58,250 bases of DNA, from positions 47,044-105,293 of the forward strand of contig NZ_KB899927.1 in NCBI RefSeq assembly GCF_000378465.1. The letters run 5' to 3'. Positions 13,756 through 43,981 of this stretch are shown piece by piece. The position numbers and the translations under genes were made by a program. This stretch comes from Elioraea tepidiphila DSM 17972. Its GTDB lineage: Bacteria > Pseudomonadota > Alphaproteobacteria > Acetobacterales > Acetobacteraceae. The notes under the pieces were generated by a model. It had not been told where the DNA came from and ran no database searches. It was given only the letters and a program-made list of their open reading frames with translations. Numbering within the stretch: position 1 is the first letter of the stretch; every line of letters starts with the position of its first letter.

Positions 13756-15012
13756 TCAGCGGAACAGGCCGAGCAGGCTCTGGCCCTGCTGGTTGGCGAT
13801 CGAGAGCGACTGGATCGCCAGCTGCTGCTTGGTCTGCAGGCTGGTGAGCCGCGCGCTCTCCTCGGCCAGGTCGGCGTCCACCAGCGCGCCAAGACCCTCC
13901 TTGATCGAGTCGGTGAGCTGCTTGTTGTAGTCCTGCAGCCCTTCGACCTGGCGGATCGACGCGCCGAGATTCGCGAGCGTCGTGTTGATGGTCGAGATCG
14001 CCGCGTCCACGGCCGCGATCGCGGTGTTGCCGGCCGCCGCGCCCGTGATGGTGGCGACGGTTGCGGCCGCCGAGGCACCGCTACCGATGATCGCGTTCGG
14101 GATCGTCGTGCCATCGTACAGCGTGACGGTGTCCTCGGTCGCCGCGGCATCGACCGCGCCGGTGATGTCGAGCGTGAACCCGCCGCCGGTCGTGTTCAGG
14201 CTGGCGCCGAAGCCCTCGGCCTGGATCGCGTTGGCGAGCGCCGAGATGGCGTCGAACGGCGTCTGCGACGTGGCGTCGTACTGGACCTGGATCACCTTCA
14301 CCATCTCGTTGGTGCCGGTGGTGCCCGGGTCGTCGCCCCTAGGCTGGGTGACCAGAGCCGCCGAGCCGTCGGTGAACTCGAACACGTAGCGCGCGCCGTC
14401 CTGGGCCTGGATCGCGAACACCTCGTTGTTCGCGACGTCGAAGCCGGTGCCGAAGGTCACCTGCACGCCGCCCTGGTTCAGGCGCAGGCCGGTGAGCTGG
14501 ATGTCGGCCACGGTGCCGGCCTGGTTGTTCACCGTGAGCGAGTTGCTGCCCTGGATGTTGGTGATCACGCTCAGGTTCGAGTTGGCGGTGCTGCTGGCGG
14601 CGTTGGCGTCCAGCAGGTTCACGCCGTTGAAGGTGGCGCTGCGGGCATAGGCGTCGATGTTCTGCAGCGCCTGATCGATCTGGTTCTGCACCGTCGTCGC
14701 GTCGATGCCCTGCTGCTGGCCCTGCGTGACCGTCTGCTTCAGCCGCGCAAGCTCCTCGGAGATCTTGGTCGCCGCGTCGCGCGCCACGGTGAGGGTCGCC
14801 TTGCCGAAGGCGAGGCTGTCCTTGACCGCCTCCATGCCCTTCAGGTCGGCGCGCATGGTCTGGGCGATCGCGAACACGGCCGGATCGTCGTTGGCCTTGT
14901 TGATGCGCAGGCCGGACTCGACGCGCGCCTGCGTGGTCTGCATGTTGTTGTTGATCATCGACAGCGAGCGGATCGCCGCCATCGCCGTCACGTTCGTGTT
15001 GATCGAGGACAT
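13756..15012 (-). CDS. Flagellin
   Basis: A 418-residue filament subunit. The N-terminal D0/D1 region (MSSINTNVTAMAAIRSLSMI to about residue 150) and the C-terminal D1/D0 region (from about 340, ending NQQGQSLLGLFR) show the usual flagellin ends. Between them is a variable Thr/Ala/Gly-rich exposed domain. In the N-terminus, SGLRINKANDDPAVFAIAQTM is the conserved flagellin core. AAGGAGAAGG precedes the ATG, and a perfect sigma-54 promoter lies 92 bases upstream. Followed by flaF and the DUF1217 gene. It is exported unfolded through the flagellar secretion system. Confidence 0.96.
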   Translation of the reverse strand: MSSINTNVTAMAAIRSLSMINNNMQTTQARVESGLRINKANDDPAVFAIAQTMRADLKGMEAVKDSLAFGKATLTVARDAATKISEELARLKQTVTQGQQQGIDATTVQNQIDQALQNIDAYARSATFNGVNLLDANAASSTANSNLSVITNIQGSNSLTVNNQAGTVADIQLTGLRLNQGGVQVTFGTGFDVANNEVFAIQAQDGARYVFEFTDGSAALVTQPRGDDPGTTGTNEMVKVIQVQYDATSQTPFDAISALANAIQAEGFGASLNTTGGGFTLDITGAVDAAATEDTVTLYDGTTIPNAIIGSGASAAATVATITGAAAGNTAIAAVDAAISTINTTLANLGASIRQVEGLQDYNKQLTDSIKEGLGALVDADLAEESARLTSLQTKQQLAIQSLSIANQQGQSLLGLFR

Positions 15013-15551: not shown

Positions 15552-15578
15552 CCGTTTTCGAGACGGAGGATTGTGGCC

Positions 15579-16895
15579 ATGACCCGTACGCTCCTCGGCG
15601 CCGCCGGCGCCCTGCCGCCCGAGACCGCGACGGCCCTGCATCCGGCGGACCTCGCCGCGCTGCTCGACCGCCGCGCGCCCGGGGATGCGTGGGAGGTGCT
15701 GGCGCGCCTGCCGCTTGCCCGCCGCGCCGAGACCTTCGGCTATCTCGCCGCCGCCACCCAGGTCGCGATCGCCGGGATCGCGCCGCCGCGCGACCTGGCT
15801 GCGGTGATCTCGGCGATGGACGCCGACGAGCGCGCCGATCTCTGGAACCAGCTTGACGAGGAGGCGCGCGCCGCCCTCGCGCCGGCGCTCGCCGCGGCCG
15901 AGCGCGAGGACATCCGCAAGCTCTCCTCCTACGAGCCCGGCACCGCCGGCGCGGTGATGACCAGCGAATACGCCGTGCTGCGCCCCGACCTCACCGCCCG
16001 CGAGGCGATCGAGGCACTGCGCGGCCAGGCGCATTCCAAGGAGACCATCCAGGTCGCCTATGTGCTCTCGCCGCAGCGGCGCCTGCTCGGCACGGTGCTG
16101 CTGGAGGATCTCGTGCTCGCCCCCGCCGATCGCCGGGTCGAGGCGCTGATGCGCAAGGACCCGCCCTTTGTGCATGCCGGCGATCCGGCCGAGGCGGCCG
16201 CGCGCGCGATCGCGAAGTACGACCTGCCGGCGATCCCGGTGATCAATGGCGGCGAGATGATGGTCGGCATCGTCACTGCGGACGACGCGATGGACGTCGC
16301 CGCCGAGGAGGCCACCGAGGACTTCCACAAGGCGGGCGGCTCGGCGAGCCTCGGCGTATCGATCCGCGAGGCGACCATCGGGCTGCTCTATCGCAAGCGG
16401 ATCGCCTGGCTGGTGGTGCTGGTGTTCGCCAACGTCTTCTCGGGCGCCGGGATCGCGGCGTTCGAGGACGTGATCGCGGCGAATGTCGCGCTGGTGTTCT
16501 TCCTGCCGTTGCTGATCGACAGCGGCGGCAATGCCGGCAGCCAGTCGGCCACGCTGATGGTCCGCGCGCTCGCGACCGGCGAGGCACGCCTGGGCGACTG
16601 GGCGCGCATGCTGGGGCGGGAGGTCTCGGTCGCCGGGCTGCTCGGCCTGACCATGGCCGGCGCGGTCTCGATCCTCGGTCTCGTGCGGGGCGGGCCGGAG
16701 ATCGCCGTGATCGTCGCCATGACGATGGTGTGCGTGGTGCTCGTCGGCAGTGTGATCGGGCTCTCGCTCCCCTTCCTGCTGACGAAGATGAAGCTCGACC
16801 CCGCCACCGCCTCGGCGCCGCTGATCACCTCGATCGCGGACGCCACGGGGGTGCTGATCTACTTCGCGATCGCCTCGGCGCTCCTGGTCGGGTGA
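15579..16895 (+). CDS. mgtE: Magnesium transporter MgtE (copy 1)
   Basis: A 438-residue Mg2+ channel/transporter. An N-terminal superhelical domain (about 1-125) is followed by paired CBS domains (EREDIRKLSSYEPGTAGAVM through VGIVTADDAMD, about 115-245) that close the channel when Mg2+ is high. Five membrane spans follow (about 270-438), with the conserved SGGNAGSQSATLMVRALATGE in the pore region. The ATG at 15579 was chosen over a GTG two codons earlier because GGAGGA lies eight bases before it. A second, divergent mgtE follows on the same strand. Confidence 0.93.
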   Translation: MTRTLLGAAGALPPETATALHPADLAALLDRRAPGDAWEVLARLPLARRAETFGYLAAATQVAIAGIAPPRDLAAVISAMDADERADLWNQLDEEARAALAPALAAAEREDIRKLSSYEPGTAGAVMTSEYAVLRPDLTAREAIEALRGQAHSKETIQVAYVLSPQRRLLGTVLLEDLVLAPADRRVEALMRKDPPFVHAGDPAEAAARAIAKYDLPAIPVINGGEMMVGIVTADDAMDVAAEEATEDFHKAGGSASLGVSIREATIGLLYRKRIAWLVVLVFANVFSGAGIAAFEDVIAANVALVFFLPLLIDSGGNAGSQSATLMVRALATGEARLGDWARMLGREVSVAGLLGLTMAGAVSILGLVRGGPEIAVIVAMTMVCVVLVGSVIGLSLPFLLTKMKLDPATASAPLITSIADATGVLIYFAIASALLVG

Positions 16896-17111: not shown

Positions 17112-18488
17112 GTGATCAAGCCTCTCGAGAAGAACGCGCTGGTCGCGTTCATCGAGCGCAAGGACCTCGACTCGGTCCGCGCCGCACTCAAGCCCTGTCA
17201 CCCCTTCGACATCGCCTCGCTCCTGCCCGAGCTGCCGCCCGAGCAGCAGGTCGAGATCCTGCTGTCGCTGCCGGCCAAGCGGCAGGCGCAGGTGTTCGGC
17301 TACCTCGATGCCGAGGAGCAGCTCGCGCTTGCGCGCGCGCTCCGGCGCGAGGATCTCGGCCGGCTGTTCGCCGACATGGACCCGGACGAGCGGGCCGACC
17401 TGTTCAAGCGCCTGCCCGCAGCGGTGCGCGAGGCGATCGTGCCCGGGCTCGCCCAGGCCGAGCGCGAGGACATCCGCAAGCTTGCCGCCTATCCGGAGAG
17501 CACCGTCGGCGCGGTGATGACCTCGGCCTACGCCGCGGTGCCGCCGGACGTGACCGCGCGCGAGGCGATCGACCTGCTGCGCCAGGAGGCGCCGAACCGC
17601 GAGACCATCTACGAGGTGTTCGTCATCGACGCGACACGCGAGCTGCTCGGCGTGGTGTCGCTGCGCGAGCTTCTGCTTGCGCCACCCGAGTCGCGCGTCT
17701 CGGAGGTGATGCGCCGCGAGGTGGTGAAGGTCGCGGCCGAGGCGCCCCGCGCCGAGGCCGCGCGGCTGATCGGCGAGTACGACCTGATCGCGCTGCCGGT
17801 GACCAATGGCGGCGGGAAACTCGTCGGCATCGTCACCGCCGATGATGCGATGGAGGTCGCCGAACAGGAGGAGCTGAAGCGGATCCAGACCTTCGGCGGC
17901 ACCCTCGCCGTCGGCGGCCCAGACCTCGATCTGCTGAACTCCCCGTTCCGGCAGCTCTTCACCGCACGCTTCTTCTGGCTGGCGCTGCTCACGGTGTTCG
18001 GGCTCGCGACCAGCCATATCGTCGCCGCGCAGGAGGAGATGCTGGAGAAGGCGATCGTGCTCGCCGCCTTCATCGCGCCCATCGTCGACATGGGTGGAAA
18101 CACCGGTAGCCAGACCGCGACGATGGTGATCCGCGCCATGGCGCTCGGCCAGATCGCGCTGCGCTTCTCTGACTTCTTGAAGGTGCTGAAGCGCGACCTC
18201 CCGGTGGCGCTGGCCCTGGGGGGCGGTGTCGCCGTGCTGGAAGCGGTGCTCGCCTACACGATGAAGAGTCTCGGCTGGGACGTCGTCGCCGTCATCGGGC
18301 TCTCGATGTTGGCGTGCACGGTCCTGGGCAGCCTGTTCGGCATCCTCCTGCCCTTCGCGGCACGGGCGATGAAGCAGGATCCGGCGACCCTGTCCTCGCC
18401 CGTGATCACGTCGGTGATGGATCTGGTGGGAGTGCTGATCTATTTCGGCATCGCCTGGATCGTCCTCGCGCATCTCTTCGTTGATTGA
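17112..18488 (+). CDS. Magnesium transporter MgtE (copy 2)
   Basis: A 458-residue MgtE paralogue: N-terminal domain with repeated VEILLSLPAKRQAQVFGYL-type helices, CBS pair (EREDIRKLAAYPESTVGAVM to VGIVTADDAMEV), and five membrane spans with GGNTGSQTATMVIRAMALG. It is clearly related to copy 1 but has diverged over most of its length, so this is an old duplication rather than a recent repeat. The start is GTG, preceded at a distance by GGAG. Expected in the inner membrane as a dimer. The two copies may differ in gating or ion preference; this cannot be judged from sequence. Confidence 0.92.
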   Translation: MIKPLEKNALVAFIERKDLDSVRAALKPCHPFDIASLLPELPPEQQVEILLSLPAKRQAQVFGYLDAEEQLALARALRREDLGRLFADMDPDERADLFKRLPAAVREAIVPGLAQAEREDIRKLAAYPESTVGAVMTSAYAAVPPDVTAREAIDLLRQEAPNRETIYEVFVIDATRELLGVVSLRELLLAPPESRVSEVMRREVVKVAAEAPRAEAARLIGEYDLIALPVTNGGGKLVGIVTADDAMEVAEQEELKRIQTFGGTLAVGGPDLDLLNSPFRQLFTARFFWLALLTVFGLATSHIVAAQEEMLEKAIVLAAFIAPIVDMGGNTGSQTATMVIRAMALGQIALRFSDFLKVLKRDLPVALALGGGVAVLEAVLAYTMKSLGWDVVAVIGLSMLACTVLGSLFGILLPFAARAMKQDPATLSSPVITSVMDLVGVLIYFGIAWIVLAHLFVD

Positions 18489-21157: not shown

Positions 21158-22288
21158 ATGACCGAGCCCCGCACCGCGACCGAGCCCGTGCTCGCGTCGA
21201 CCCCGCCCGTGGCCGACGCGCTGGTGAGCTATGCCGAGGCGCCGCCCGATCGGCGCGCGCGCATCGAGGCCGCGCTCGCCGAGCTCGACATCAGCGACAG
21301 CAACTCGGTGATCAGCTTCGGCGCGCGGGCGCAGGCGCAAGTGACCGAGATCGCCGACTCGATGCTGGAGGGCGTGCGCAACAAGGACACGGGCGCGGCC
21401 GGCGCGGTGCTGTCCGACATGGTGGCGACCCTGCGCGGTTTCGATGTCGAGGAGCTGAAGAAGGGCGGCGGGTTCTTCGCCCGCCTGCTCGGCCGCTCGC
21501 GCCCGATCGTGAAGGTGCTGCAGCGCTACGAGCAGGTGCGTGGCCAGATCGACGGCATCACCGACCGGCTGGAGAGCCACAAGACCCGGCTGATGACCGA
21601 TATCGCCCAGCTCGACCGGCTGTACGGCGCCACGCTGGAGTATTTCCACTCCCTCGCCGACTACATCGCCGCCGGCGAGGAGGCGCTGCGCCGGCTCGAT
21701 GAGGAGGACATCCCCAAGCTCCAGGCGGCGGCGCAGGCCTCGGGCGACATGCTCGCCGCCCAGGCGCTCCGCGATCTGCGCGCGCGCCGCGACGAGCTGG
21801 AGCGGCGCGTGCACGACCTCAAGCTCACGCGCCAGGTGACGATGCAGGCGCTGCCCTCGATCCGCCTGGTACAGGAGAACGACAAGGCGCTGATCGGCCG
21901 CATCACCTCGACGGTCGCGAACACCGTGCCGCTCTGGCGCCAGCAGCTCGCCCAGGCGGTGACGATCGCGCGCAGCCAGGAGGCGGGCAAGACGCTCAAG
22001 GAGGCGACCGACCTGACGAACGAGCTGCTCGCGGCGAATGCCGAGAACCTGCGCATGGCGAACAAGGAGATCCGCGAGCAGATCGAGCGCGGCGTGTTCG
22101 ACATCACGATCGTCAAGAAGGCGAATGACGACCTGATCGCGACCATCAACGAGAGTCTCGCGATCGCCGACGAGGGCAAGCGCAAGCGCGCCGAGGCCGA
22201 GAAGGTGCTGGTGCAGTGCGAGGCCGAGCTGAAGCAGGTGCTCTCGGCCGCCAAGGCGCGCGCGACCGGCGCCGAGCCGCAGGGCTGA
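21158..22288 (+). CDS. TelA-family (toxic anion resistance) protein
   Basis: A 376-residue almost entirely helical, coiled-coil-rich cytoplasmic protein. Family features: FGARAQAQVTEIADSML, KKGGGFFARLLGRSRPIVKVLQRYEQV, RQVTMQALPSIRLVQENDKALI and PLWRQQLAQAV. TelA homologues are linked to tellurite resistance and to tolerance of envelope-active agents, but the mechanism is unclear. It follows xpaC by 12 bases, and four bases separate it from the SPFH gene, so they are one operon. Confidence 0.9.
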   Translation: MTEPRTATEPVLASTPPVADALVSYAEAPPDRRARIEAALAELDISDSNSVISFGARAQAQVTEIADSMLEGVRNKDTGAAGAVLSDMVATLRGFDVEELKKGGGFFARLLGRSRPIVKVLQRYEQVRGQIDGITDRLESHKTRLMTDIAQLDRLYGATLEYFHSLADYIAAGEEALRRLDEEDIPKLQAAAQASGDMLAAQALRDLRARRDELERRVHDLKLTRQVTMQALPSIRLVQENDKALIGRITSTVANTVPLWRQQLAQAVTIARSQEAGKTLKEATDLTNELLAANAENLRMANKEIREQIERGVFDITIVKKANDDLIATINESLAIADEGKRKRAEAEKVLVQCEAELKQVLSAAKARATGAEPQG

Positions 22289-22292
22289 CGCG

Positions 22293-23411
22293 ATGGTCTG
22301 GAACCTGATCCGCGGCCAGTTCGTCGATGTCATCGGCTGGACCGACGACACCGGCGACACGATGTGCTGGCGTTTCGAACGCCACGGCAACGAGATCAAG
22401 TACGGCGCGCAGCTCACGGTGCGCGAGGGCCAGATGGCGGTGTTCGTCAACGAGGGCCGCATCGCCGACGTGTTCCCGCCCGGCATGTACACGCTGGAGA
22501 CACGCAACCTGCCGGTGCTCTCGACCTTGCAGGCCTGGCCGCACGGGTTCGAGAGCCCGTTCAAGGCCGAGGTCTATTTCGTCGCCACGCGCCGCTTCCC
22601 CAACCTGAAATGGGGCACGCGCAATCCGATCATGCTGCGCGACCGCGAGTTCGGCCCGGTCCGCCTGCGCGCCTTCGGCACCTACGAGGTGCGCGTGACC
22701 GACGCGCCCACCTTCCTGCGCGAGATCGTCGGCACGGATGGGCGCTTCACCACCGACGAGATTTCCGAGGCGCTGCGCAACATGATCCTGACCCGGATCG
22801 CGACCGCGCTCGGCGCCGGCGCGATCCCGGTGCTCGATCTCGCGGCCAACCAGCAGGCGCTGTCGGAGTATCTGACCAACGCGCTCAAGCCCGATTTCGG
22901 CCAGTACGGGCTCGATCTGACGCGGATGCTGGTCGAGAACATCTCGCTGCCGCCCGAGGTCGAGCAGGCGCTCGATACCCGCACGAAGATGGGCGTGATC
23001 GGCGATCTGCGCGCCTACACCCAGTTCCAGGCGGCCGAGGCGATGGCCAAGGCGGCCGCGAACCCCGCCGGCGGCGCGGGGGCCGCGGTCGGCGCCGGGG
23101 TCGGGCTCGGGCTCGGCCAGCAGATCGCCGCGGCGCTCGCGCAGAACCCGTGGGCGGCGGCGCCCGCGCCACCGCCGCCGCCGGCCGCGGCCCCGCCGCC
23201 CGTGCCGCAGCGGCAATGGTTCCTCGCCTTCGGCGGCACCGCCCACGGCCCGCTCGCCGAGAGCGCATTGCCCGACGAGGCGCGCGCGGGCCATCTCAAG
23301 CGCGACACGCTGGTGTGGCGCGAGGGCATGACCGACTGGAAGCCCGCCTCCGAGGTGCCCGAGCTTGCCTTCGCCCTGGTCCCGGTCCCGCCCCCGCTCC
23401 CCGGGGCCTGA
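22293..23411 (+). CDS. SPFH-domain protein with C-terminal GYF_2 domain (YdjI-like)
   Basis: A 372-residue protein. Residues 1-250 match the SPFH/virion core protein-like family (IEWxDD-type start VIGWTDDTGDTMCWRFERHGNEIKYGAQLTVREGQMAVFVNEG, then KAEVYFVATRRFPNLKWGT). A Gly/Ala linker and an Ala/Pro stretch (about 255-310) lead to a GYF_2 (DUF4339) domain with QWFLAFGGTAHGPL, LVWREGMTDWKPASEVPEL. SPFH proteins form membrane-associated oligomers. Context with TelA and XpaC suggests an envelope-stress assembly; B. subtilis YdjI is the nearest known parallel. Confidence 0.85.
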   Translation: MVWNLIRGQFVDVIGWTDDTGDTMCWRFERHGNEIKYGAQLTVREGQMAVFVNEGRIADVFPPGMYTLETRNLPVLSTLQAWPHGFESPFKAEVYFVATRRFPNLKWGTRNPIMLRDREFGPVRLRAFGTYEVRVTDAPTFLREIVGTDGRFTTDEISEALRNMILTRIATALGAGAIPVLDLAANQQALSEYLTNALKPDFGQYGLDLTRMLVENISLPPEVEQALDTRTKMGVIGDLRAYTQFQAAEAMAKAAANPAGGAGAAVGAGVGLGLGQQIAAALAQNPWAAAPAPPPPPAAAPPPVPQRQWFLAFGGTAHGPLAESALPDEARAGHLKRDTLVWREGMTDWKPASEVPELAFALVPVPPPLPGA

Positions 23412-24522
23412 CCCCGCGCCCGAGGCGGCGGAGGAACGGCTCGATCGCATTCCGTGCTCGCAATGCGGCGCGGAGCTCACCTATGCGCCGGGCACGCGCA
23501 TGGTGCGCTGCGCCTATTGCGGCCACGAACAGCAGATCACCGGCTCGCCCTGGCAGGTGGTGGTCGAGCGCGACCTCGCGGCCGCGTTGGCGAAGGCCGC
23601 CGACGAGCACCTGACCGAGGATCGCCGCGTCCTGAAGTGCCAGACTTGTGCTGCGAGCTTCGACGCGGCGGAGGGGCAGGGGGCGGGGCAATGCCCGTTC
23701 TGCGGCTCGGCGATCGTTGCCGATCCGGCGCGCACGCGGCGCATCCGCCCGGACGGCGTGGTGCCCTTCGCGATCCCGCGCGAGAAGGCGCAGGACTCGC
23801 TCCGGCAATGGCTCGCCGGGCTGTGGTTCGCGCCGTCGGACCTGTCGCGCAAGGCCGAGGCCGAGGCGCGCATCCAGGGACTCTATCTGCCGTTCTGGAC
23901 CTATGACTGCGACACCAGCACCGAGTACCAGGGCGCGCGCGGCATCCGCGTGGTGCGCCACGTGCCGGTGACGCGCCAGGTGCAGGGTAAGCTCGTGACC
24001 CAGATGCAGCCGGTGACGGAACTGCGCTGGACCCCCGTCACCGGCCGGGTGGCGCGCCGCTTCGACGACGTGCTGGTGCCGGCCGCGCGGGCGCTGCCGC
24101 TCGCTGATCTCGGCCGCGCCGGGGTTTGGAACACGCAGACCGTGCGGCCCTATGCGCCCGACTGGCTCGCCGGGTTCCGCTCGGCCCTCTACGACGTGGC
24201 GCTGGCCGACGGGTTCGCGGCTGCGCAGGGCATCATGCGCGGCATCATCGAAGCCGACATCCGCCGCGACATCGGCGGCGATGCGCAGCGCATCACCGCC
24301 TCGCGCACGTCCTGGCGCGACGCGACCTTCAAGCACGTGCTGCTGCCGGTCTGGGTGGCGGCGTATCGCTATCGCGGCAGGACGTTCCGCTTCGTTGTCA
24401 ATGGCCAGACCGGACAGGCGCATGGCGAGCGGCCGTGGAGTGTCGGCAAGATCGCGCTCGCGCTGCTGGGCGCGCTCGCGGTGGCGGGGCTGATTGCGTT
24501 GATCGCCGGGCAGACGGGGTGA
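23365..24522 (+). CDS. Zinc-ribbon protein with C-terminal membrane span
   Basis: A protein of up to 385 residues. Two zinc ribbons are visible: CSQCG...CAYCG (about 31-55) and CQTC...CPFCG (about 92-115). A long central domain of unknown function follows (FWTYDCDTSTEYQGARG, PVTELRWTPVTGRVARRFDDVLVPA), then one membrane span near the end (LALLGALAVAGLIALIAG). The only in-frame start before the first ribbon is TTG at 23365, which overlaps the SPFH gene by 47 bases, so the start is uncertain. Similar zinc-ribbon genes often follow SPFH/TelA genes. Confidence 0.75.
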   Translation: MPSPWSRSRPRSPGPDPAPEAAEERLDRIPCSQCGAELTYAPGTRMVRCAYCGHEQQITGSPWQVVVERDLAAALAKAADEHLTEDRRVLKCQTCAASFDAAEGQGAGQCPFCGSAIVADPARTRRIRPDGVVPFAIPREKAQDSLRQWLAGLWFAPSDLSRKAEAEARIQGLYLPFWTYDCDTSTEYQGARGIRVVRHVPVTRQVQGKLVTQMQPVTELRWTPVTGRVARRFDDVLVPAARALPLADLGRAGVWNTQTVRPYAPDWLAGFRSALYDVALADGFAAAQGIMRGIIEADIRRDIGGDAQRITASRTSWRDATFKHVLLPVWVAAYRYRGRTFRFVVNGQTGQAHGERPWSVGKIALALLGALAVAGLIALIAGQTG

Positions 24523-35601: not shown

Positions 35602-36891
35602 TCAGCCGCGGCGGAACGGCCGCAGCACGCGATCGGCCTCGGCCTGCGCGTCGGCCATCGCCTGCTGCGCCGACTTCGATCCGGTCAGCAGCGCCTGGAG
35701 GTTGTCGTTCAGCGCCTTGTAGACGCGCTGGTTCTCGTAGGTGGAGAGTTCGCCGGTCGCAACCGGCAACTGCTCCTTCGCCACCAGCGCCGGCGGGAAC
35801 TCGGCCGTGTAGCGCTTCAGCGCCTCGGTCTCCCACGCGTCCGGCCGCACCGCCAGATAGCCGGTCTTGATGCACCAGTCGGCGGCGAGTTCGGGCGAGG
35901 TCAGGAAACGGGCGAAGCGCAGCACGGCCTGACGCTCAGCCGGATTGGCGTTCTTGAAGATGTAGAGATTGCCGCCGCCGACGACGGTGCGCGGCGCCTC
36001 CTTGCCCGGCAGGCCCGCCACGCCGAACTCGAAACTCGCGTTCGTACGCACATTGGTGAGGTTGCCGGTGGTGGACCAAATCATCGCCGCCGTGCCCTGC
36101 AGGAAGTTGGGCGCCAGCACGGCCCACTCGGTGACGCCCTGCGGCGTGATCTGATGCGTGAACGCCATGTCGCGCCAGAACGACGCCGCCTCGATCGCGC
36201 GCGGATGGTTGAAGTACACCTCCGTGCCGGCCTCGTTCATCAGCGTGTGGTTCACCTGGTTGCATAGCGCGCCGAAGGTCCATTGCGCGGTGCCGTGGTT
36301 GGTGGCGAGCTGCACGCCCCAGCGCCCGCCCGCGCCCTCGCGGCGGGTCAGCTTCTTGCCCGCGTCCACCAGTTCGGCCCAGGTGCGCGGCGGCGCATCC
36401 GGGTTGAGCCCGACCTCGCGGAACATCGCCTTGTTGTAGAAGTAGATCGAGGTCGAGCGCTGGAACGGCACCGACCAGGTCTTCCCCTCGGCCAGGCTGT
36501 TCGCCATGAAGGCCGGGAAGAAGCCCGAGAGCCACGCCTTGGTCTCGGCCGAGTTGTCGATGTCCTCGATGGGGGCGAGGATGTCCATGTCGCGCAGCGA
36601 ATGAAGCTCGGCGGCGAGCAGCACCGAGAAATGCGGCCCCGTGCCGCCGCGGATGGCGGTGACCGCCTTGGTCAGCGTCTCGCCGTAGAAGCCCGAGTAC
36701 ACGGGCTTCACGGTGATGCCGCTCTCGCGCTGGAACGCCTCGCAGTAGCCGTCGATGATCCGCGGCACCGGGCCGCCGATCGCGATCGGATAGTAGAAGG
36801 TGAGCTCGCGCACCTGCTGTGCGCGCAGCACGGCAGGCGCGGCGAGGGTCGCGGCAGCGGCGGCGAGCGCCGTGCGTCGGGTGAGAGTCAT
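35602..36891 (-). CDS. Extracellular solute-binding protein (UgpB-like), intact copy
   Basis: A 429-residue periplasmic protein with a signal peptide (MTLTRRTALAAAAATLAAPAVLRA). The mature part reads ELTFYYPIAIGGPVPRIIDGY, then PFQRSTSIYFYNKAMFREVGL, and ends with STYENQRVYKALNDNLQALL, matching UgpB-type binding proteins of Ugp-like importers. A close paralogue, frameshifted, lies directly upstream, evidence of a tandem duplication. Probably binds a glycerol-phosphodiester-like or sugar ligand; not determined by sequence. Confidence 0.93.
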   Translation of the reverse strand: MTLTRRTALAAAAATLAAPAVLRAQQVRELTFYYPIAIGGPVPRIIDGYCEAFQRESGITVKPVYSGFYGETLTKAVTAIRGGTGPHFSVLLAAELHSLRDMDILAPIEDIDNSAETKAWLSGFFPAFMANSLAEGKTWSVPFQRSTSIYFYNKAMFREVGLNPDAPPRTWAELVDAGKKLTRREGAGGRWGVQLATNHGTAQWTFGALCNQVNHTLMNEAGTEVYFNHPRAIEAASFWRDMAFTHQITPQGVTEWAVLAPNFLQGTAAMIWSTTGNLTNVRTNASFEFGVAGLPGKEAPRTVVGGGNLYIFKNANPAERQAVLRFARFLTSPELAADWCIKTGYLAVRPDAWETEALKRYTAEFPPALVAKEQLPVATGELSTYENQRVYKALNDNLQALLTGSKSAQQAMADAQAEADRVLRPFRRG

Positions 36892-36910
36892 CGGAGGGCT
36901 CCGTCCAGAC

Positions 36911-38178
36911 TCAGCGATAACGGCGGAGAATCCGCTCCGCCTCGGCCTGTGCGTCCGCCATGGCGGGGCCGGCCTGCTTGCGGCCGGTCAGCGCCGCCTG
37001 GAGGTTGTCGTTCAGCGCCTTGGTGACGCGCTGGTTCTCGTGCGTCGAAAGCTCCGCGACCGCATGGGAAGCTGGTCGCGCGCGACGGCGGCAGCGGGGA
37101 AGTCGGCCACATAGGCCTTCATCGCCTGGGTCTCCCACGCCGCCGGCGTGACGGCGACATAGCCGGTGTCGATGCCCCATTGCGCGGCCAGTTCGGGGGC
37201 GGTCAGGAACTTCGCGAAGCGCACGGCCGCCTCGCGCTGCGCCGCGTTGGCCTTCTTGAAGACGTAGATGTTGCCGCCGCCGGTCGCGCTGCCGCGCCGG
37301 CGCCCGGCCGGCAGCATCGCGACGCCGAACGGGAAGGGCGCGTTGCGCCGGACATTGGTCAGGTTGCCGGTGGTGGTCCACATCATCGCCACCTTGCGCT
37401 CGAAGAAGTCGCGCGGCGTGGTGCCCCACTCGACGATGCCGGGCGGGTGCACCCGATGCGTCATCGAGAGGTCCATCCAGTACTGCAGCGCCTCGACCAC
37501 CTTCGGGTCGTCGTAGAAGGTGCGGTTGCCCTCGGGGTTCATCAGCCGCACGTCGTTCTGCGTCGTCAGCCCCTGGAACAGCCAGTAGGGGAAGCCGGAG
37601 GAGGGGATCTGGATGCCCCACTGCGCCGTCTGGTCACCCTCGCGCCTGGTCAGCCGGCGCGCGAACTCCAGCTGCTCGGCCCAGGTCGCGGGCGCGACCT
37701 CGGGATCGAGCCCGGCGTCGCGGAACATCTCCTTGTTCCAGTAGAGCACCTTGGTCGAGCGCTGGAACGGGATGCCCCAGGTCTTGCCGCCGGTGCGGCT
37801 GTTCTCGAGGAAGGCGGGATAGAAGCTGTCGAGCCAGGCACGATCCACGCCGGGCAGATCGTCCCAGGGCAGGATCGCGTCCTCGTCGATCAGCGTGAAG
37901 ATGTCGACCGAGAGCAGGCACGCCGTTTCGGGCGCGTCACCGCCGCGCGCGGCCGTCAACGTCTTGGTCAGCGTGTCCTGGTATGTGCCCGCGTAGATCG
38001 GGCGTACGCGGAAGCCCGGATTGGCGCGCTCGAAATCGGCGCAGTAGCCGTCGATCAGGCGCGTGATCGGTCCGCCGACGGCGATCGGGTAGTTGAACAC
38101 GATCTCGACGGGCGCCTGCGCCAGCACGGCGGGGGCGGCGGCGAGGCTTTGCAGCGCCCGGCGTCGGGTCAGGGTCAT
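36911..38178 (-). pseudogene. Second UgpB-like binding protein, frameshifted near its 3' end
   Basis: A signal peptide (MTLTRRRALQSLAAAPAVLAQA) and a full mature domain, paralogous to the neighbour throughout (IVFNYPIAVGGPITRLIDGY, PFQRSTKVLYWNKEMFRDAGL). At about 37063-37068 the frame breaks after AVARDQLP. The original frame continues into an unrelated tail ending SFRRTRTSASPRR, while the next frame carries the expected ending AVAELSTHENQRVTKALNDN to ILRRYR. Aligned with the paralogue, one base is missing beside a GGG run. Either a real one-base deletion, costing about 50 conserved residues, or a sequencing error. Confidence 0.85.
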
Positions 38179-38203
38179 GTGCGGTCTCCGTTGCGGGGAG
38201 GGG

Positions 38204-39316
38204 TCAGGCGTCCACGGGCACGCGCCCGGGGATGGGTTCGGGCAGGCGACGTCCCGTGGTCGGATCGAACAGGTGCAATGCCGGCGGCAGGCGCAGGCGC
38301 AGCGGCGTGCCGGACGCGACGGCGTGATTGCCGTGCACACGCGCCTGGATCGTCTCCTCCGCCGCGCCGACGCGGCACGAGAGCACGGTCTCGGCGCCGA
38401 GGAACTCGGCCGAGATCACCGTCACGGCAAGGCCGGGACCGTCGGTCAGCGCGATCTCCTCCGGCCGCACGCCGAGGATCGCGCCCGCGGCTTCGGCCGG
38501 AGCGACCACGGGGCCGGGCGTGCCGGCGATCACCGCGCCGTCCGCGCCGGGCTCGAGACGCAGCAGCGACATCGGCGGCGTGCCGATGAAGGCGGCGGCG
38601 AACAGCGAGGCGGGGCGGGCGTAGAGCTCGGCCGGCGTCGCGTCCTGCTCGATCCGGCCTTCGTTCATCAGCACGACCTGATCGGCCATGCTCATCGCCT
38701 CGGCCTGGTCGTGCGTGACATAGACCATGGTGAGCCCGAGCCGCTGTTGCAGCGCGCGGATCTCGCGGCGCATCTCGGCGCGCAGCTTGGCGTCGAGGTT
38801 GGAGAGCGGCTCGTCCATCAGGCAGATCGGCGCCTCGGCGACGACGGCGCGGGCCAGCGCGACGCGCTGCTGCTGCCCGCCCGAGAGCTGGTTGGGCCGG
38901 CGGTGCAGAAGCTGCGTGAGCCCGAGCATGCCGGCCGCGCGCGCCAGCCGCGCCTCGCGCTCGGCCCGCGGCGCGCCGCGCGCGCGCAGCCCGAACACGA
39001 TGTTCTCGGCGACCGAGAGATGCGGAAACAGCGCGTAGTTCTGGAACACCATGGCCACGCCGCGCTCCTTCGGCGGCAGGCCCGTGACGTCGCGGCCGCT
39101 CAGGTACACCCGGCCGGTGTGTTGCGTGTCCAGCCCCGCAACGATCCGCAGCAGGGTCGATTTGCCGCAGCCCGAGGGGCCGAGCAGCACGACGAAGCGC
39201 CCGCCCGCGGTCGCGAGCGACACGCCAGACAGCGCGGCGGTCGTGCCGAACCGCCGCGTGACATCCTCGAGGCGGAGCTCTCCCCTCGACCTTGCCCCCG
39301 CATCCATGCCACGCAC
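38204..39316 (-). CDS. ABC transporter ATP-binding protein (UgpC/MalK type)
   Basis: A 370-residue ATPase: Walker A GPSGCGKST, Q-loop VFQNYALFPHLSVAEN, signature LSGGQQQR, Walker B CLMDEPLSNLD, H-loop YVTHDQAEAM, then a C-terminal TOBE domain (GVRPEEIALTDG, ending PTTGRRLPEP). First gene of the Ugp-like operon, followed by two binding proteins, two permeases and an SDR. Start either GTG at 39316 or ATG three codons later. Confidence 0.93.
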   Translation of the reverse strand: MRGMDAGARSRGELRLEDVTRRFGTTAALSGVSLATAGGRFVVLLGPSGCGKSTLLRIVAGLDTQHTGRVYLSGRDVTGLPPKERGVAMVFQNYALFPHLSVAENIVFGLRARGAPRAEREARLARAAGMLGLTQLLHRRPNQLSGGQQQRVALARAVVAEAPICLMDEPLSNLDAKLRAEMRREIRALQQRLGLTMVYVTHDQAEAMSMADQVVLMNEGRIEQDATPAELYARPASLFAAAFIGTPPMSLLRLEPGADGAVIAGTPGPVVAPAEAAGAILGVRPEEIALTDGPGLAVTVISAEFLGAETVLSCRVGAAEETIQARVHGNHAVASGTPLRLRLPPALHLFDPTTGRRLPEPIPGRVPVDA

Positions 39317-39400
39317 CCTAGCACAGGTCGCTCACGGTTGGGTGAAGGGCGCATGACGATGCGGTGCAGCAATCGTCGCGCCGGACTGCGGCGTTCCGGT

Positions 39401-39880
39401 TCAGCCCGGCGCGGGGCGCCTGCGGAACGACCGGACGATCTCCAGCATCTCCTCGCGCCGGTCCTCGAAGGAGGCTTCATCGACGGTCGCCACGCACTCG
39501 GTCAGCACGTCCGCGTCGATGCGCAGCACATGGACCTGCGCCAGCGTGGCGATCGGCGTCGGGAACTGGATGTCGAGCGAGAGCCCCGCGCCGCCGTCGT
39601 CGAACGCGAACGGCTCCGGGCCGCGCAGGACCCGCAACCCGGCAACGCTCTGGAGCATGTTCGTGCGCGTCATCTCGATCGCCGTCTCGAGGGTGAGGGG
39701 CTCGGTCAGAAGCCGCCGGCCGACCACGACATTCGCACGCGGGCCGGGCGGCAGGGTCTCTCCCGAAGCGAGCTCGGTCACGATCGCCGGCTCGACGAAG
39801 GTCGCCTGCAGCGCGACCTGCCAGCCCTCGCGGTCGCGCAGGGCCGGCAGGTCGAACAGCAACATCTCGGGAATGGTCAT
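39401..39880 (-). CDS. DcrB-related (DUF1795-like) protein
   Basis: A 159-residue protein with no obvious signal peptide. The pattern (NVVVGRRLL near 50, LTLETAIEMTRTNMLQSVAGLRVLRGPEPFAFDDGGAG in the middle, VLRIDADVLTECVATVDEASFEDRREEMLEIVRSFRR at the end) follows the PsbP/DcrB-like DUF1795 fold. Such proteins occur beside secretion-system genes, including type VI. It is third in an overlapping operon with the FlhA-C-like protein and a membrane protein; the start overlaps the previous stop (ATGA). Confidence 0.6.
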   Translation of the reverse strand: MTIPEMLLFDLPALRDREGWQVALQATFVEPAIVTELASGETLPPGPRANVVVGRRLLTEPLTLETAIEMTRTNMLQSVAGLRVLRGPEPFAFDDGGAGLSLDIQFPTPIATLAQVHVLRIDADVLTECVATVDEASFEDRREEMLEIVRSFRRRPAPG

Positions 39881-42606
39881 GACGGTGCTCCCCTGACGGT
39901 GCCCGGCCCGATGCGGCCTCGCACCCACGCCGCGAGGCCGCGCGGCAGCTCGTGCGCGGCGATGACCTGAAGCATCGGGTGACGTGCAGCGATGCGCCGG
40001 CGGATCTCGGCCCGCCGCGACGCCGGCGCCAGCACCACGCCGCCGGCGCGCGCGCATCCGTCCAGGCGCCGGGCGAAGGCGTCGTTCCATGCCGCCTCGT
40101 CGGCCGCGCCGGCACCGGGGGCGTCGGCGAGCGCCGCCTCCTCAACCAGCCACAGCCCGATCCGGCCGGCCCCGTGAACCGCCGCCAGGGTCGCGGGGAC
40201 CAGCACCGCGCGGGCGATCGCCAGACGTTCGGGGTCGGGCGCGGCCGTGCCCGGATGCGGCAGCGCCAGGTGCCCGGGCAAGGCGGCCGCCACCAGCCCC
40301 TCACGCGCGAGCCAGCGCACCCGGCGCGCCGGCTCGGCGAGCGGCAGGGCGACACGGTCGAGCGCGTCCAGCGAGACCCCCTCCGCGATCAGTGCGCGCA
40401 GCAAGCGGCCGAGCGGCGCAAGGCCGAGCCGGAGCAGGGCCGTCGCCTCGCGGGCCGGTATGGTGGCGAGACGCGCCAGCACGGCCGCATCGTCGAGGCA
40501 GCGCACCGCGATGGCCGGGCCAAGCGCGGCAAGGGCGCGCGCGACCCAGGCCGCGGGGGAGAAGACCGAAGGGAAGTCGCCCGCGACCAGCGCGGCCTCG
40601 GCCACGCCTTCGACCAGCGTGGCCGGTGTCGCCGGATGCCTGGGGTCGCTGATGGGGACAAGACGTTCCGTGTCCGCCACGAGCGCGCGAACCCGTTCCG
40701 GCGAGTCGAGGACGACAAGGGCGCCGGCGGGCGGCGCCTCCGCCTCCGCCAGCACCTCCGTCCCGCAGGCAAGCCGCCATCGTCGCGGCGTCAGCGGCTC
40801 CTCGGCGACCAGGCGCAGCGGCGGCAGCCCGACGCCGAGGGCGCGCGCGGCCTGCTCGATCGCGCGCTCGACCACGGCGTTCCGCGCCGCGGCGAGCTCG
40901 GCGTGCAGCGCGGGGCCGGCGGTGAGCGTGAGCGACCAGTCCGCGCTGATCCAGGGCGCCTCGGCGGACCCGGCGGCCGGAAGGGCGACCCCCCGGCGCC
41001 AAGCGGGGGGATCGCCCCGCTGGACGGGCTCGGGCGGCGGGTCGAGCGGCGCGACCGGCCGCCCGCCGCACTCCGCCCGCGCGACCACCGGCACGTCGGG
41101 GCGGTCGATCCGCAGCAGCGCGCGGATCAGGGGCCTGAGCCGCGCGTCGCGGACGACCAGGGCAGGCCAGAGCCCGTCGCCGTCCGGGGACAGGGCTGCG
41201 ACGATCCGACGCAGGCGCGCGGGCTCGGTCGCGATCGCGGGGCCATCCACGCCGGCGGCCAGCGCCGCCTCGTCATCGCGCGGCAGCCAGCGCAGGGAGC
41301 GATCGGGTTCGAGCCCCCAGGGCGGCGGTTCTCGGGGCGTGAGCCGCTCGATCGTCAGCGCCGTCATGGCATCGCTGAAGGCCTCGGGCACGGGCTGCAC
41401 GTCGGCCGCGGGGGCCTCCATGCGCTCCGCCAGACGCAGCCGCGCGAGCGCCGCCGGCCAGTGGCTCAGCGTGCTGTCGAGGGGCATGCGGTCGAGGCCG
41501 CGCAGGGCCACTTGTGCGAGGGCGCGCAACGCTGCAGGCGCGGCGGCGTGGGCCTCCCACCAGTCGAGATCCCCGGCGGGGATCTCGGCGGGGACGCTCA
41601 GGGGAGGCTGCTCGGGCGCGCGGATCACGGCAGCGCCCTCGCCCAGCGCGGCGGCGCGCAGGCTGATCCCCGGCAGGATCACGCCGAAGCGCTGACGCAG
41701 CGCGGCACGCAGCCCGATGATCGACGGGCTGCCCGCGCCATCCGTGCCGGTCCCGATCAGCGCGTTCGCGGCGGCCTCGATCCGCTTCTCATCGGCGCCG
41801 CCGATCTCCAGCACGATCCGCACCTCCAGAGCCGGCGGCACCGGCCGGCCAAGGCGGAGCGCGAGCTCGGCGGCCATCTCGGGCAGCGCGTCGCCGTGGC
41901 GATCGAGCCAGGCCGGGTCCGCAATCGCGGCAAGGGCGCGCAGGGGGCTGCCCTGCCGCACCCGCGCGGCCGGTCCTTCGGCATAGCGGACGACGCTGCG
42001 CACGGACTCGCGCCAGCCCTCGTTCAGCCAAGGCGCGTCGGCAAGCGCGCGCAGCCGTGCGGCGGCGCCATCGGCATCGCCGAGCGCGATCGCGGTCATG
42101 GCGCGCATCAGATGCACGTAGGCTTCGTGCGGCGCGGCCTGCACGGCCTCCTCGGCAAGCCGCGCCGCGTCGCGGAGCGAGCGGTCGATCGAGCCGGGCG
42201 GGATCTCCCATTCGGCGGCGCAGCGCGCGAGCATCGCCATCGTCTCGGCGCGCAGCAGCCTCAGATGCGCGAGCGCCTCGAGGTCGCGGCCGGCATCCTC
42301 GAGCGCGGCGCTCTCCCGCTTCAGCGACCGCAGGACGCGCGCGAGATGGGCGAGGCAGCCACGCCGATCGCCCGCGCCGAAGGCCGCCTGTGCGGCGATC
42401 ATCTCGAGCGTCCGCGCGCCGGAGAGACCATCGGACCGGGCAGGCGACAGCACGCGCGGCGGCATGCTCTCGCCGGACGAGGCGATGAAGGCGGAGACGG
42501 CGCGCACCGCGTCGCGTTCGGCGGCGAGCGCCGAGAGGGTCTGCCACGCCGGTTCGGGCGGCGCCGTGCGCAGCGGTGCCAAGAGGCGCTGCACGGTCCG
42601 GATCAT
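39877..42606 (-). CDS. Large soluble protein with two regions resembling the cytoplasmic domain of FlhA/SctV
   Basis: A 909-residue protein with no membrane span or signal peptide. Residues 20-230 are helical, TPR-like. Residues 262-515 contain RAALRQRFGVILPGISLRA and WPALVVRDARLRPLIRALLR. Residues 552-892 contain EQAARALGVGLPPLRLVAEE with RRWRLACGTEVL, then PLGRLLRALIAEGVSLDALD, then AGGVVLAPASRRAEIRRRIA. These follow, in order, the FlhA C-terminal blocks (GF-PPVxIRD, RILxKGVE, VLQNLLxExVPIRD, PVLLVxxxLRPLLxRFL). FlhA-C is the docking platform for export substrates. Start and stop each overlap neighbours by four bases. Homology is judged by eye. Confidence 0.65.
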   Translation of the reverse strand: MIRTVQRLLAPLRTAPPEPAWQTLSALAAERDAVRAVSAFIASSGESMPPRVLSPARSDGLSGARTLEMIAAQAAFGAGDRRGCLAHLARVLRSLKRESAALEDAGRDLEALAHLRLLRAETMAMLARCAAEWEIPPGSIDRSLRDAARLAEEAVQAAPHEAYVHLMRAMTAIALGDADGAAARLRALADAPWLNEGWRESVRSVVRYAEGPAARVRQGSPLRALAAIADPAWLDRHGDALPEMAAELALRLGRPVPPALEVRIVLEIGGADEKRIEAAANALIGTGTDGAGSPSIIGLRAALRQRFGVILPGISLRAAALGEGAAVIRAPEQPPLSVPAEIPAGDLDWWEAHAAAPAALRALAQVALRGLDRMPLDSTLSHWPAALARLRLAERMEAPAADVQPVPEAFSDAMTALTIERLTPREPPPWGLEPDRSLRWLPRDDEAALAAGVDGPAIATEPARLRRIVAALSPDGDGLWPALVVRDARLRPLIRALLRIDRPDVPVVARAECGGRPVAPLDPPPEPVQRGDPPAWRRGVALPAAGSAEAPWISADWSLTLTAGPALHAELAAARNAVVERAIEQAARALGVGLPPLRLVAEEPLTPRRWRLACGTEVLAEAEAPPAGALVVLDSPERVRALVADTERLVPISDPRHPATPATLVEGVAEAALVAGDFPSVFSPAAWVARALAALGPAIAVRCLDDAAVLARLATIPAREATALLRLGLAPLGRLLRALIAEGVSLDALDRVALPLAEPARRVRWLAREGLVAAALPGHLALPHPGTAAPDPERLAIARAVLVPATLAAVHGAGRIGLWLVEEAALADAPGAGAADEAAWNDAFARRLDGCARAGGVVLAPASRRAEIRRRIAARHPMLQVIAAHELPRGLAAWVRGRIGPGTVRGAPS

Positions 42607-43787
42607 GTGGGCGTGTCCGGCGGCTTCAGGGCGGGCTCGACGCCGGTCCTGCGCGGCGGCGGCTGGCTGGGCGGCGACGCGCGGATCTCGTCCGCCGGCT
42701 CCGATGGCGGCGGCGGGGCGGCCGGCGCCTGCGCCGCCGGCGCGACCGACGGTGCCGCGCCCATGCTGCCGAAGAACGCGCTCTGCTCGCGCACGCGGCG
42801 CAGCGTCGCGATGTCCTGCGCGGTCAGGATGCCGGGCCACGCATCGCGCGCGACCGCGCGTTCGGGCAGCCAGACATCGTCGTCGGCATGGCGGTCGTGG
42901 AAGAACGCGCGGTGCAGCCGCGCCAGTTCGCTCGAGAACAGCCGCGCGAACGCCTCCAAAGCCTCGGTCGCCTCGACAACGCGCGGAAGCTGGTCGCGGA
43001 GCCAGGTGGCGAAGCGGTCCTGGCTCGCCGTCAACCCGGCCTCGGCGAGCCATGCCGGGTCGCCGATCCGCGACGAGCCGATATCGGCGGCCCCGTCCTT
43101 GCCGCGCGGGGCCTTGGTCTCCGTCTGCAACAGGATCGTGGCCGCGAGACTGCCCGAGCTTCCGCCTTCGGCCGGGGGCAGCAGGCCCATGAACCGGTTG
43201 TACAGACGGCGGAGCTGCTGGCCGGCGCCGTGGCTCGGCAGCAGGTAGGTGTTGCTGCCACGGAACTGGAACGAATCCAGGTGCCAGACCAGCCGGACGA
43301 GATGCGGGAACAGCGCGCGCGACGCATCGCTGGCCGCGACCCTGAGGGCCTCGCGCATGGCCGCGTGGTCGCGTCGTGTCAGGCTGTCGTCGCGCAGGTC
43401 GAGATAGAGCGTGATCTCGACCTGGCGCAGATAGGCGCGCAGCCCGTGCGCGAGCGTGCCGGAGGCGTTCGCAACGGTCCAGTAATGGCTGCGCGAGAGC
43501 GAGGCGACGTCCTTGGCCGTCTGCGCGCCGAACTCGCGCTGGATCTTCAGGTGCGACGAGTACTGATCGAACAGCCACTTGCCGAGGAAGCCGATCGCCG
43601 GCAGCAGGAACAGCAGCAGGAACACGACCCAGGTGGAGAGGGTCGCGCTCTCCAGGCGTGCGACCAGGCGGTCGACCCCGGTGATGACGGCATCCAGCTT
43701 GTCGGGCGGAAGCTGCGCGGCGGCGGGCGGGATCGTCAGAGCCGGCCCCAGCGTGCCGCCGATCGCCGCCGTGATCCTTCGCCTCAT
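42603..43787 (-). CDS. Membrane-anchored protein of unknown family, first gene of the FlhA-C-like operon
   Basis: A 394-residue protein, not recognised. The N-terminus resembles a signal peptide or first span (MRRRITAAIGGTLGPALTIP) and one strong span follows at about 51-73 (TWVVFLLLFLLPAIGFLGKWLF). The rest (about 75-350) is soluble and helical, followed by a Pro/Ala-rich tail. KDVASLSRSHYWTVANASGTLAHGLRAYLRQVEITLYLDL and SFQFRGSNTYLLPSHG are distinctive. Its stop overlaps the next start (ATGA). It may anchor the large soluble protein to the membrane; that is inference. Confidence 0.6.
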   Translation of the reverse strand: MRRRITAAIGGTLGPALTIPPAAAQLPPDKLDAVITGVDRLVARLESATLSTWVVFLLLFLLPAIGFLGKWLFDQYSSHLKIQREFGAQTAKDVASLSRSHYWTVANASGTLAHGLRAYLRQVEITLYLDLRDDSLTRRDHAAMREALRVAASDASRALFPHLVRLVWHLDSFQFRGSNTYLLPSHGAGQQLRRLYNRFMGLLPPAEGGSSGSLAATILLQTETKAPRGKDGAADIGSSRIGDPAWLAEAGLTASQDRFATWLRDQLPRVVEATEALEAFARLFSSELARLHRAFFHDRHADDDVWLPERAVARDAWPGILTAQDIATLRRVREQSAFFGSMGAAPSVAPAAQAPAAPPPPSEPADEIRASPPSQPPPRRTGVEPALKPPDTPT

Positions 43788-43905
43788 GCGCGTCCCCCAG
43801 GCGAGGAGGAGCTTCGCACGCGGCCGGCGCGCGGTCCATCGCGCGTTGGGGGAGCGGATCAGCCCGCGCCCGGGGTGATCATGACGGAGAAAGGACGATC
43901 GCGCA

Positions 43906-43981
43906 TGGTGCCCAGGGCCGGAATCGAACCAGCGACACCGTGATTTTCAGTCACGTGCTCTACCAACTGAGCTACCTGGGC
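43906..43981 (-). tRNA. tRNA-Phe (GAA)
   Basis: On the minus strand a 76-base cloverleaf: acceptor GCCCAGG paired with CCTGGGC, D-arm AGCTCAGTTGGTAGAGC, anticodon stem CGTGA/TCACG with loop CTGAAAA (anticodon GAA), T-arm GCTGGTTCGATTCCGGC and an encoded CCA end. The upstream yacG gene ends inside it: the yacG TAG stop is tRNA bases 8-10. Confidence 0.97.

Follow-up and report, generated by a model that had tools for sequence, protein, structure and literature searches.

According to the articles cited here, chaperone-substrate complexes dock on the cytoplasmic domain of the export gate protein FlhA (FlhA-C), which serves as their platform (PMC8166844, PMC9431611), with a GYXLI motif in D1 acting as a switch (PMC9431611). 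In Yersinia, the TPR chaperone YscY sits together with its substrate on the cytoplasmic domain of YscV (PMC9163089, in excerpt). Eag chaperones and DcrB (DUF1795, PF08786) belong to type VI secretion, according to PMC7773334. Searches of the open-licence literature brought up no free-standing FHIPEP protein, and the FHIPEP passages of two papers concern flagellar genes.

Here we describe a three-gene operon of Elioraea tepidiphila DSM 17972, in which a protein with no membrane half probably carries two distant relatives of the FlhA/SctV cytoplasmic domain (PF00771). Overall, we regard the locus as unusual and plausible; the central homology is probable, and recurrence of the operon is unsupported. 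In the window, by which we mean the whole 58,250-nucleotide stretch of DNA analysed, genes of 394, 909 and 159 codons follow one another in that order on the minus strand (43787-39401). The gene order and overlaps reported in the initial annotation were borne out: the upstream (42603-43787), middle (39877-42606) and downstream (39401-39880) genes, all on the minus strand, share a 4-base ATGA overlap at each of the two junctions. These overlaps suggest the translational coupling that the same annotation had taken as given. The stretch is 76% GC and the opposite strand also has long open frames, so that frame length alone is little proof of a gene; the ATGA overlaps and the codon-position base composition are better evidence. 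The composition of the trio is coding-like and similar to that of the adjacent ABC transporter gene, and is least coding-like in the alanine-rich middle gene. The trio is a rare bacterial cassette, the role of which in the cell can only be predicted.

The 909-residue middle protein has a tripartite layout. A TPR-like N-terminus, as proposed earlier, is recovered in residues 1-239 (41890-42606, minus strand) by the family TPR_19 (18.4 bits, E 0.0027), at a score below the Pfam curated cut-off of 25; the same residues gave non-significant matches to HrpB1_HrpK (E 0.4) and T3SS_chap_SctY (E 2.3). Two FlhA-C-like regions follow, copy 1 at residues 257-520 (41047-41838, minus strand) and copy 2 at residues 552-902 (39901-40953, minus strand). 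Copy 1 is shorter than FlhA-C, its middle part being missing or unrecognisable. The eight-span membrane half of FlhA/SctV is clearly absent, as had been claimed, the scan for 19-residue hydrophobic windows over 1.6 yielding a single marginal window in the 909 residues (1.62, from residue 795).

The resemblance to FlhA/SctV lies in the order of three elements, the D1 helix-strand block, a VLQxLL-type helix (copy 2) and the terminal block, and in a profile score above those of both shuffled and genomic decoys. Against a first profile of the cytoplasmic domains of 31 FHIPEP-family sequences the middle protein scored 8.4 bits, and none of 4000 shuffles did as well (the best reached 7.3). With a wider profile of 51 sequences, to which 20 further and more diverse members had been added, it scored 12.4 bits (E 3.3e-6 for a single comparison), while the same 4000 shuffles got no further than 4.9. 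In 400 kb of the same genome, the 970 ORFs of at least 200 codons scored no more than 5.6 with the wider profile. A second decoy set comprised 409 ORFs at least 300 codons long, taken from the fetched loci and the window, those above 100 bits (FlhA proteins) being left out; here the best score was that of the middle protein's own frame (9.9 bits), and the next was 2.8.

Both copies also scored on their own. Residues 410-909 with a short extension gave 13.1 bits against the FHIPEP cytoplasmic-domain profile, copy 2 alone (residues 534-909) 9.0 bits (0/3000 shuffles) and copy 1 alone (residues 241-533) 6.2 bits (1/3000 shuffles). Copy 2 aligned in three blocks in FlhA order, profile positions 33-82, 174-209 and 292-334 falling on residues 585-634, 729-764 and 857-899, and copy 1 in two, positions 27-48 and 288-321 falling on residues 296-317 and 478-512. 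The blocks lie where the initial annotation had placed them, the VLQNLL-like helix having been assigned to the second copy only. An extra match, of residues 86-122 to profile positions 175-211, is probably noise from TPR helices. Pairwise global alignment gave copy 2 a mean z-score of 4.0 over the 51 sequences and 2.1 against the host's own FlhA; the mean for copy 1 was 1.2, and the two copies showed no direct likeness to each other (z 0.3). Pfam FHIPEP matched the whole middle protein at 9.6 bits (E 0.38) and was the sole Pfam family returned for all three pieces that contained copy 2 (10.8-11.1 bits, E 0.14-0.17).

The main competing explanation is that the likeness to FlhA-C arose by chance or convergence in a helical protein rich in Ala and Arg (22% and 11% of residues), which would be a TPR/alpha-solenoid scaffold of other origin doing membrane work with its neighbours. 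Several results are in keeping with this. The Pfam scores of 9.6-11.1 bits fall far short of the curated FHIPEP cut-off of 29.1, and no library match attains a curated threshold; copy 1 alone returned no Pfam family, and NCBIfam and PDB sequence searches with the middle protein returned nothing relevant. Profile-profile comparison by hhalign with the single sequence, in which copy 2 aligned over residues 584-900, gave probabilities below 5% that were equalled by shuffles (n=100), and thus no gain over them. Among 38 FlhA-C columns with conservation of 90% or more across the 51 sequences, copy 2 matched 15 and copy 1 matched 13, both within the range of 100 realigned shuffles (mean 12.5, maximum 19, and mean 11.1, maximum 16, respectively).

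Structure prediction, proposed earlier as a means of comparison with FlhA-C, yielded models of low confidence. The single-sequence model of copy 2 (residues 523-909) had a pLDDT of 43, averages of 63-79 being confined to some 50 residues towards the C-terminus (model residues 321-370), and that of copy 1 (residues 240-533) a pLDDT of 39.5. Searched with Foldseek against 350,542 PDB chains, the copy 2 model had no match with E below 0.001; ten cytoplasmic domains of FlhA, InvA or CdsV were nevertheless among the matches listed (50 of 172), with E values of 0.74-3.0, TM-scores of at most 0.18 to this poor model, and ranks below several designed helical repeats. None of the 12 matches to the copy 1 model was FlhA, which indicates that not every poor model of such composition would draw the matches seen with copy 2. 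We consider the copy 2 list suggestive and short of proof of the four-subdomain FlhA-C fold.

Chance or convergence would have to produce a score that no shuffle and no genomic ORF attained, that rose when the profile was widened, and that comes from two partial matches in FlhA order, one of them in the copy whose model drew FlhA and SctV proteins from Foldseek. We think this explanation unlikely, while giving it more weight than any other rival. The significance of the similarity, as judged from sequence, is moderate. Distant homology to the FlhA/SctV cytoplasmic domain is the best-supported reading of residues ~257-520 and ~552-902, and we hold with some confidence that the two regions are such homologues.

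The differences from FlhA and SctV are as marked as the likeness. Unlike them, the middle protein has tandem copies behind a TPR-like N-terminus in place of a membrane half, scores far below the family cut-off, and has lost conserved motifs. The GYXLI motif is kept in neither copy (the aligned residues of copy 2 are G-P-A-L-H), and neither are the EPAFGLPxxWI and VVDxxxVxxTHL stretches of the aligned FlhA sequences. The loss of GYXLI suggests that any cargo would differ from flagellar cargo. Comparison with SctX:SctY on SctV, as far as the excerpt of PMC9163089 goes, is similarly two-sided: TPR-like and SctV-C-like units that are separate proteins in the injectisome would here be joined in one chain, although the SctY match is at E 2.3 and the one FHIPEP-family gene over the cut-off in this genome, on another contig, is of the full-length FlhA type. 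By analogy, a fused TPR and FlhA-C-like chain after the YscY-YscV pattern is at most imaginable.

The flanking genes of the trio provide candidates for an anchor and a partner. The 394-residue upstream protein has one strong hydrophobic span at about residues 50-72 in hydropathy windows, together with a signal-like N-terminus (by eye) and a Pro-rich tail, and its large domain is presumably cytoplasmic; library searches gave it no convincing family match. The single span of the anchor described earlier is thus present, and anchoring itself is what the span would predict. The 159-residue downstream protein scored 8.2 bits against a profile built from five DcrB-family sequences of relatives, a value reached by one of 5000 shuffles and above the 6.7 bits of the best of 1961 genomic ORFs; with its longer open frame it scored 6.7 bits, the same as that best ORF. 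Its reported DcrB-like character holds as this weak profile similarity and found no echo in Pfam DcrB, which did not match the protein at E 10 or anything in the genome at E 1. The protein has no hydrophobic window over 1.6. The genomic settings of the 159-residue protein and of the Eag/DcrB proteins differ. The five DcrB loci of relatives have Hcp-, VgrG- or PAAR-like neighbours (named by eye from the protein starts) and no FlhA-C-like neighbour (best -0.3 bits), whereas the trio segment contains three genes only, none of them Hcp-, VgrG- or PAAR-like, and has no type VI secretion neighbourhood.

Our data are compatible with a model in which part of the middle protein derives from the FlhA/SctV cytoplasmic domain, as two diverged tandem units behind a TPR-like region. 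The upstream protein would cross the inner membrane once and hold the middle protein there, and the distantly DcrB/Eag-like downstream protein, bound by the scaffold, would act as its partner or carry its client. Together, the TPR region and the two FlhA-C-like units would then make up a membrane-tethered scaffold on which, as on FlhA-C, a complex of chaperone and client is received. We infer each of these elements, namely homology rather than chance, the tether, the partner role and the docking function. That the trio makes an FlhA-C-derived, membrane-tethered docking scaffold with a single-span anchor and a DcrB/Eag-like partner, outside an export channel, is a tentative proposal to which we assign somewhat less than an even chance. 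The more specific version, a free-standing tandem FlhA-C-like platform with a TPR chaperone-like region, a separate inner-membrane anchor and a DcrB/Eag-like chaperone, is doubtful. The initial annotation's proposal of a soluble platform for docking, held by an anchor of its own, keeps the status of a prediction, with GYXLI and the two other FlhA stretches not kept. If the model were true, the cargo-receiving half of a type III export gate would have found a new use apart from secretion systems of any kind. Such a tandem platform, free of membrane spans and encoded in an operon of its own, would demonstrate that docking is detachable from the export channel, and would offer a separate system in which to ask what the FlhA-C fold alone recognises.

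The genomic site of the operon bears on its history. The trio lies between a tRNA-Phe gene (GAA; 43906-43981, minus strand, 3' end toward the operon) and the ABC transporter gene, with an RNase E/G gene also on the tRNA side, and no flagellar or injectisome gene neighbourhood is found beside it. In the congener G006, the tRNA-Phe and ABC genes are about 110 bases apart, and about 29 unrelated bases replace a segment of approximately 4.5 kb equivalent to 39383-43899 (limits approximate), which holds the trio and about 130 flanking bases; the trio may have been lost there or may never have been present. In a second congener, G002 (locus L002, 1440-1800), the operon is reduced by three deletions: the third gene retains its last ~25 bases, the middle gene two pieces of its N-terminal part, and the first gene its start. 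As remnants of all three genes stand at the same site, the trio appears to be older than the split of this genome and G002, and to have decayed in G002, a draft of 75% completeness in which an assembly fault is possible. In the 74 codons of the remnant, 14 differences alter the amino acid and 4 are silent; the corresponding numbers for 300 codons of the ABC gene in the same comparison are 12 and 37, giving a pN/pS of about 1.4 in the remnant vs 0.12 in its neighbour. Congeners G001 and G003 have the tRNA-Phe gene with no ABC-gene orthologue next to it, their ATPases being only ~25% identical; the contig of G004 ends at the site, and G005 gave a short match only.

Wider searches, in genome samples that overlap one another, found no second intact operon in genomes, contigs, plasmids, phages or viral contigs. 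The middle protein was found in 2 of 60 relatives (itself and the G002 remnant), in 1 of 150 family genomes (itself) and, at E 0.1, in 3 of 142 class genomes (itself and two matches with internal stops, E 0.008 and 0.023). None of its 41 pattern matches in wider genome contigs or 5 in viral contigs was confirmed, and phages gave none. Two plasmid records matching it at E 0.6 were both read as chance; the one examined shares its strand, in a different frame, with a polyketide-synthase-like gene. The upstream protein occurred in 1 of 147 genomes, with no confirmation among 76 pattern matches and nothing in plasmids; its 12 hits in 142 class genomes at E 0.1 were itself and 11 others (best E 0.0035) that we read as noise. 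For the downstream protein, 9 of 147 genomes gave a hit at E 0.1, namely itself and 8 others (best E 0.014), and plasmids one at E 3; wider stretches around 6 of its 9 foreign places held no trio, the best FlhA-C score among 457 ORFs being 5.4 bits. The reach of these searches is limited: the middle protein was missing from the hits when the genome that carries the operon was searched for FHIPEP at E 10, so distant relatives may be missed. The only other trace found of the three genes together is the decayed operon in G002, which comes close to the lack of co-occurrence that, by the initial annotation, would speak against its reading.

Patchy presence and decay, as seen in these comparisons, point to an accessory role, possibly conflict-related. 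Taken further, the trio could be a lineage-specific conflict or defence cassette, a tethered sensor or scaffold with a small partner that was gained near a tRNA gene, is easily lost and has recruited an FlhA-C-like fold for binding. The absence of the segment in G006, its large deletion at the same site in G002, the lack of another copy in the sampled genomes and the 14 amino-acid-changing differences among the 18 in the remnant all fit this possibility. However, the trio had no PADLOC match and no integrase, nuclease or toxin family among its library matches, and direct repeats at the segment ends were not noticed by eye; we consider such a cassette improbable.

We think it quite improbable that the middle protein is an accessory regulator of host flagellar export that competes with FlhA for chaperone-substrate complexes. 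The genome does have its one full-length FlhA-type gene, the window contains a flagellin gene, and FlhA-C binds chaperone complexes (PMC8166844, in excerpt), but the genes adjacent to the operon are not flagellar and the GYXLI motif is gone. A decaying relic without function, to which the three deletions and the raised pN/pS in G002 might point, is very improbable here, where all three frames are intact with coding-like codon-position composition and both gene overlaps are kept.

Outside the operon, the window has several features of its own. At 35602-38340 (minus strand), beside an ABC ATPase, two neighbouring genes encode proteins that resemble each other and look, by eye, like substrate-binding proteins; either one matches the other's counterpart in locus L060 at about 52% over 363-406 residues. 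The flagellin gene, at 13756-15012 on the minus strand (Flagellin_N E 3e-23, Flagellin_C E 2e-13), is about 24 kb from the operon. On the plus strand, two MgtE-type divalent cation transporter genes, both encoding MgtE_N and CBS domains, lie in near tandem at 15573-16895 and 17112-18488. Further along the same strand, 21158-24522 encodes in a row TelA, a GYF_2-containing SPFH/Band-7 protein and a protein that weakly matches zf-LSD1, a cluster that we take to be reminiscent of stress-response loci.
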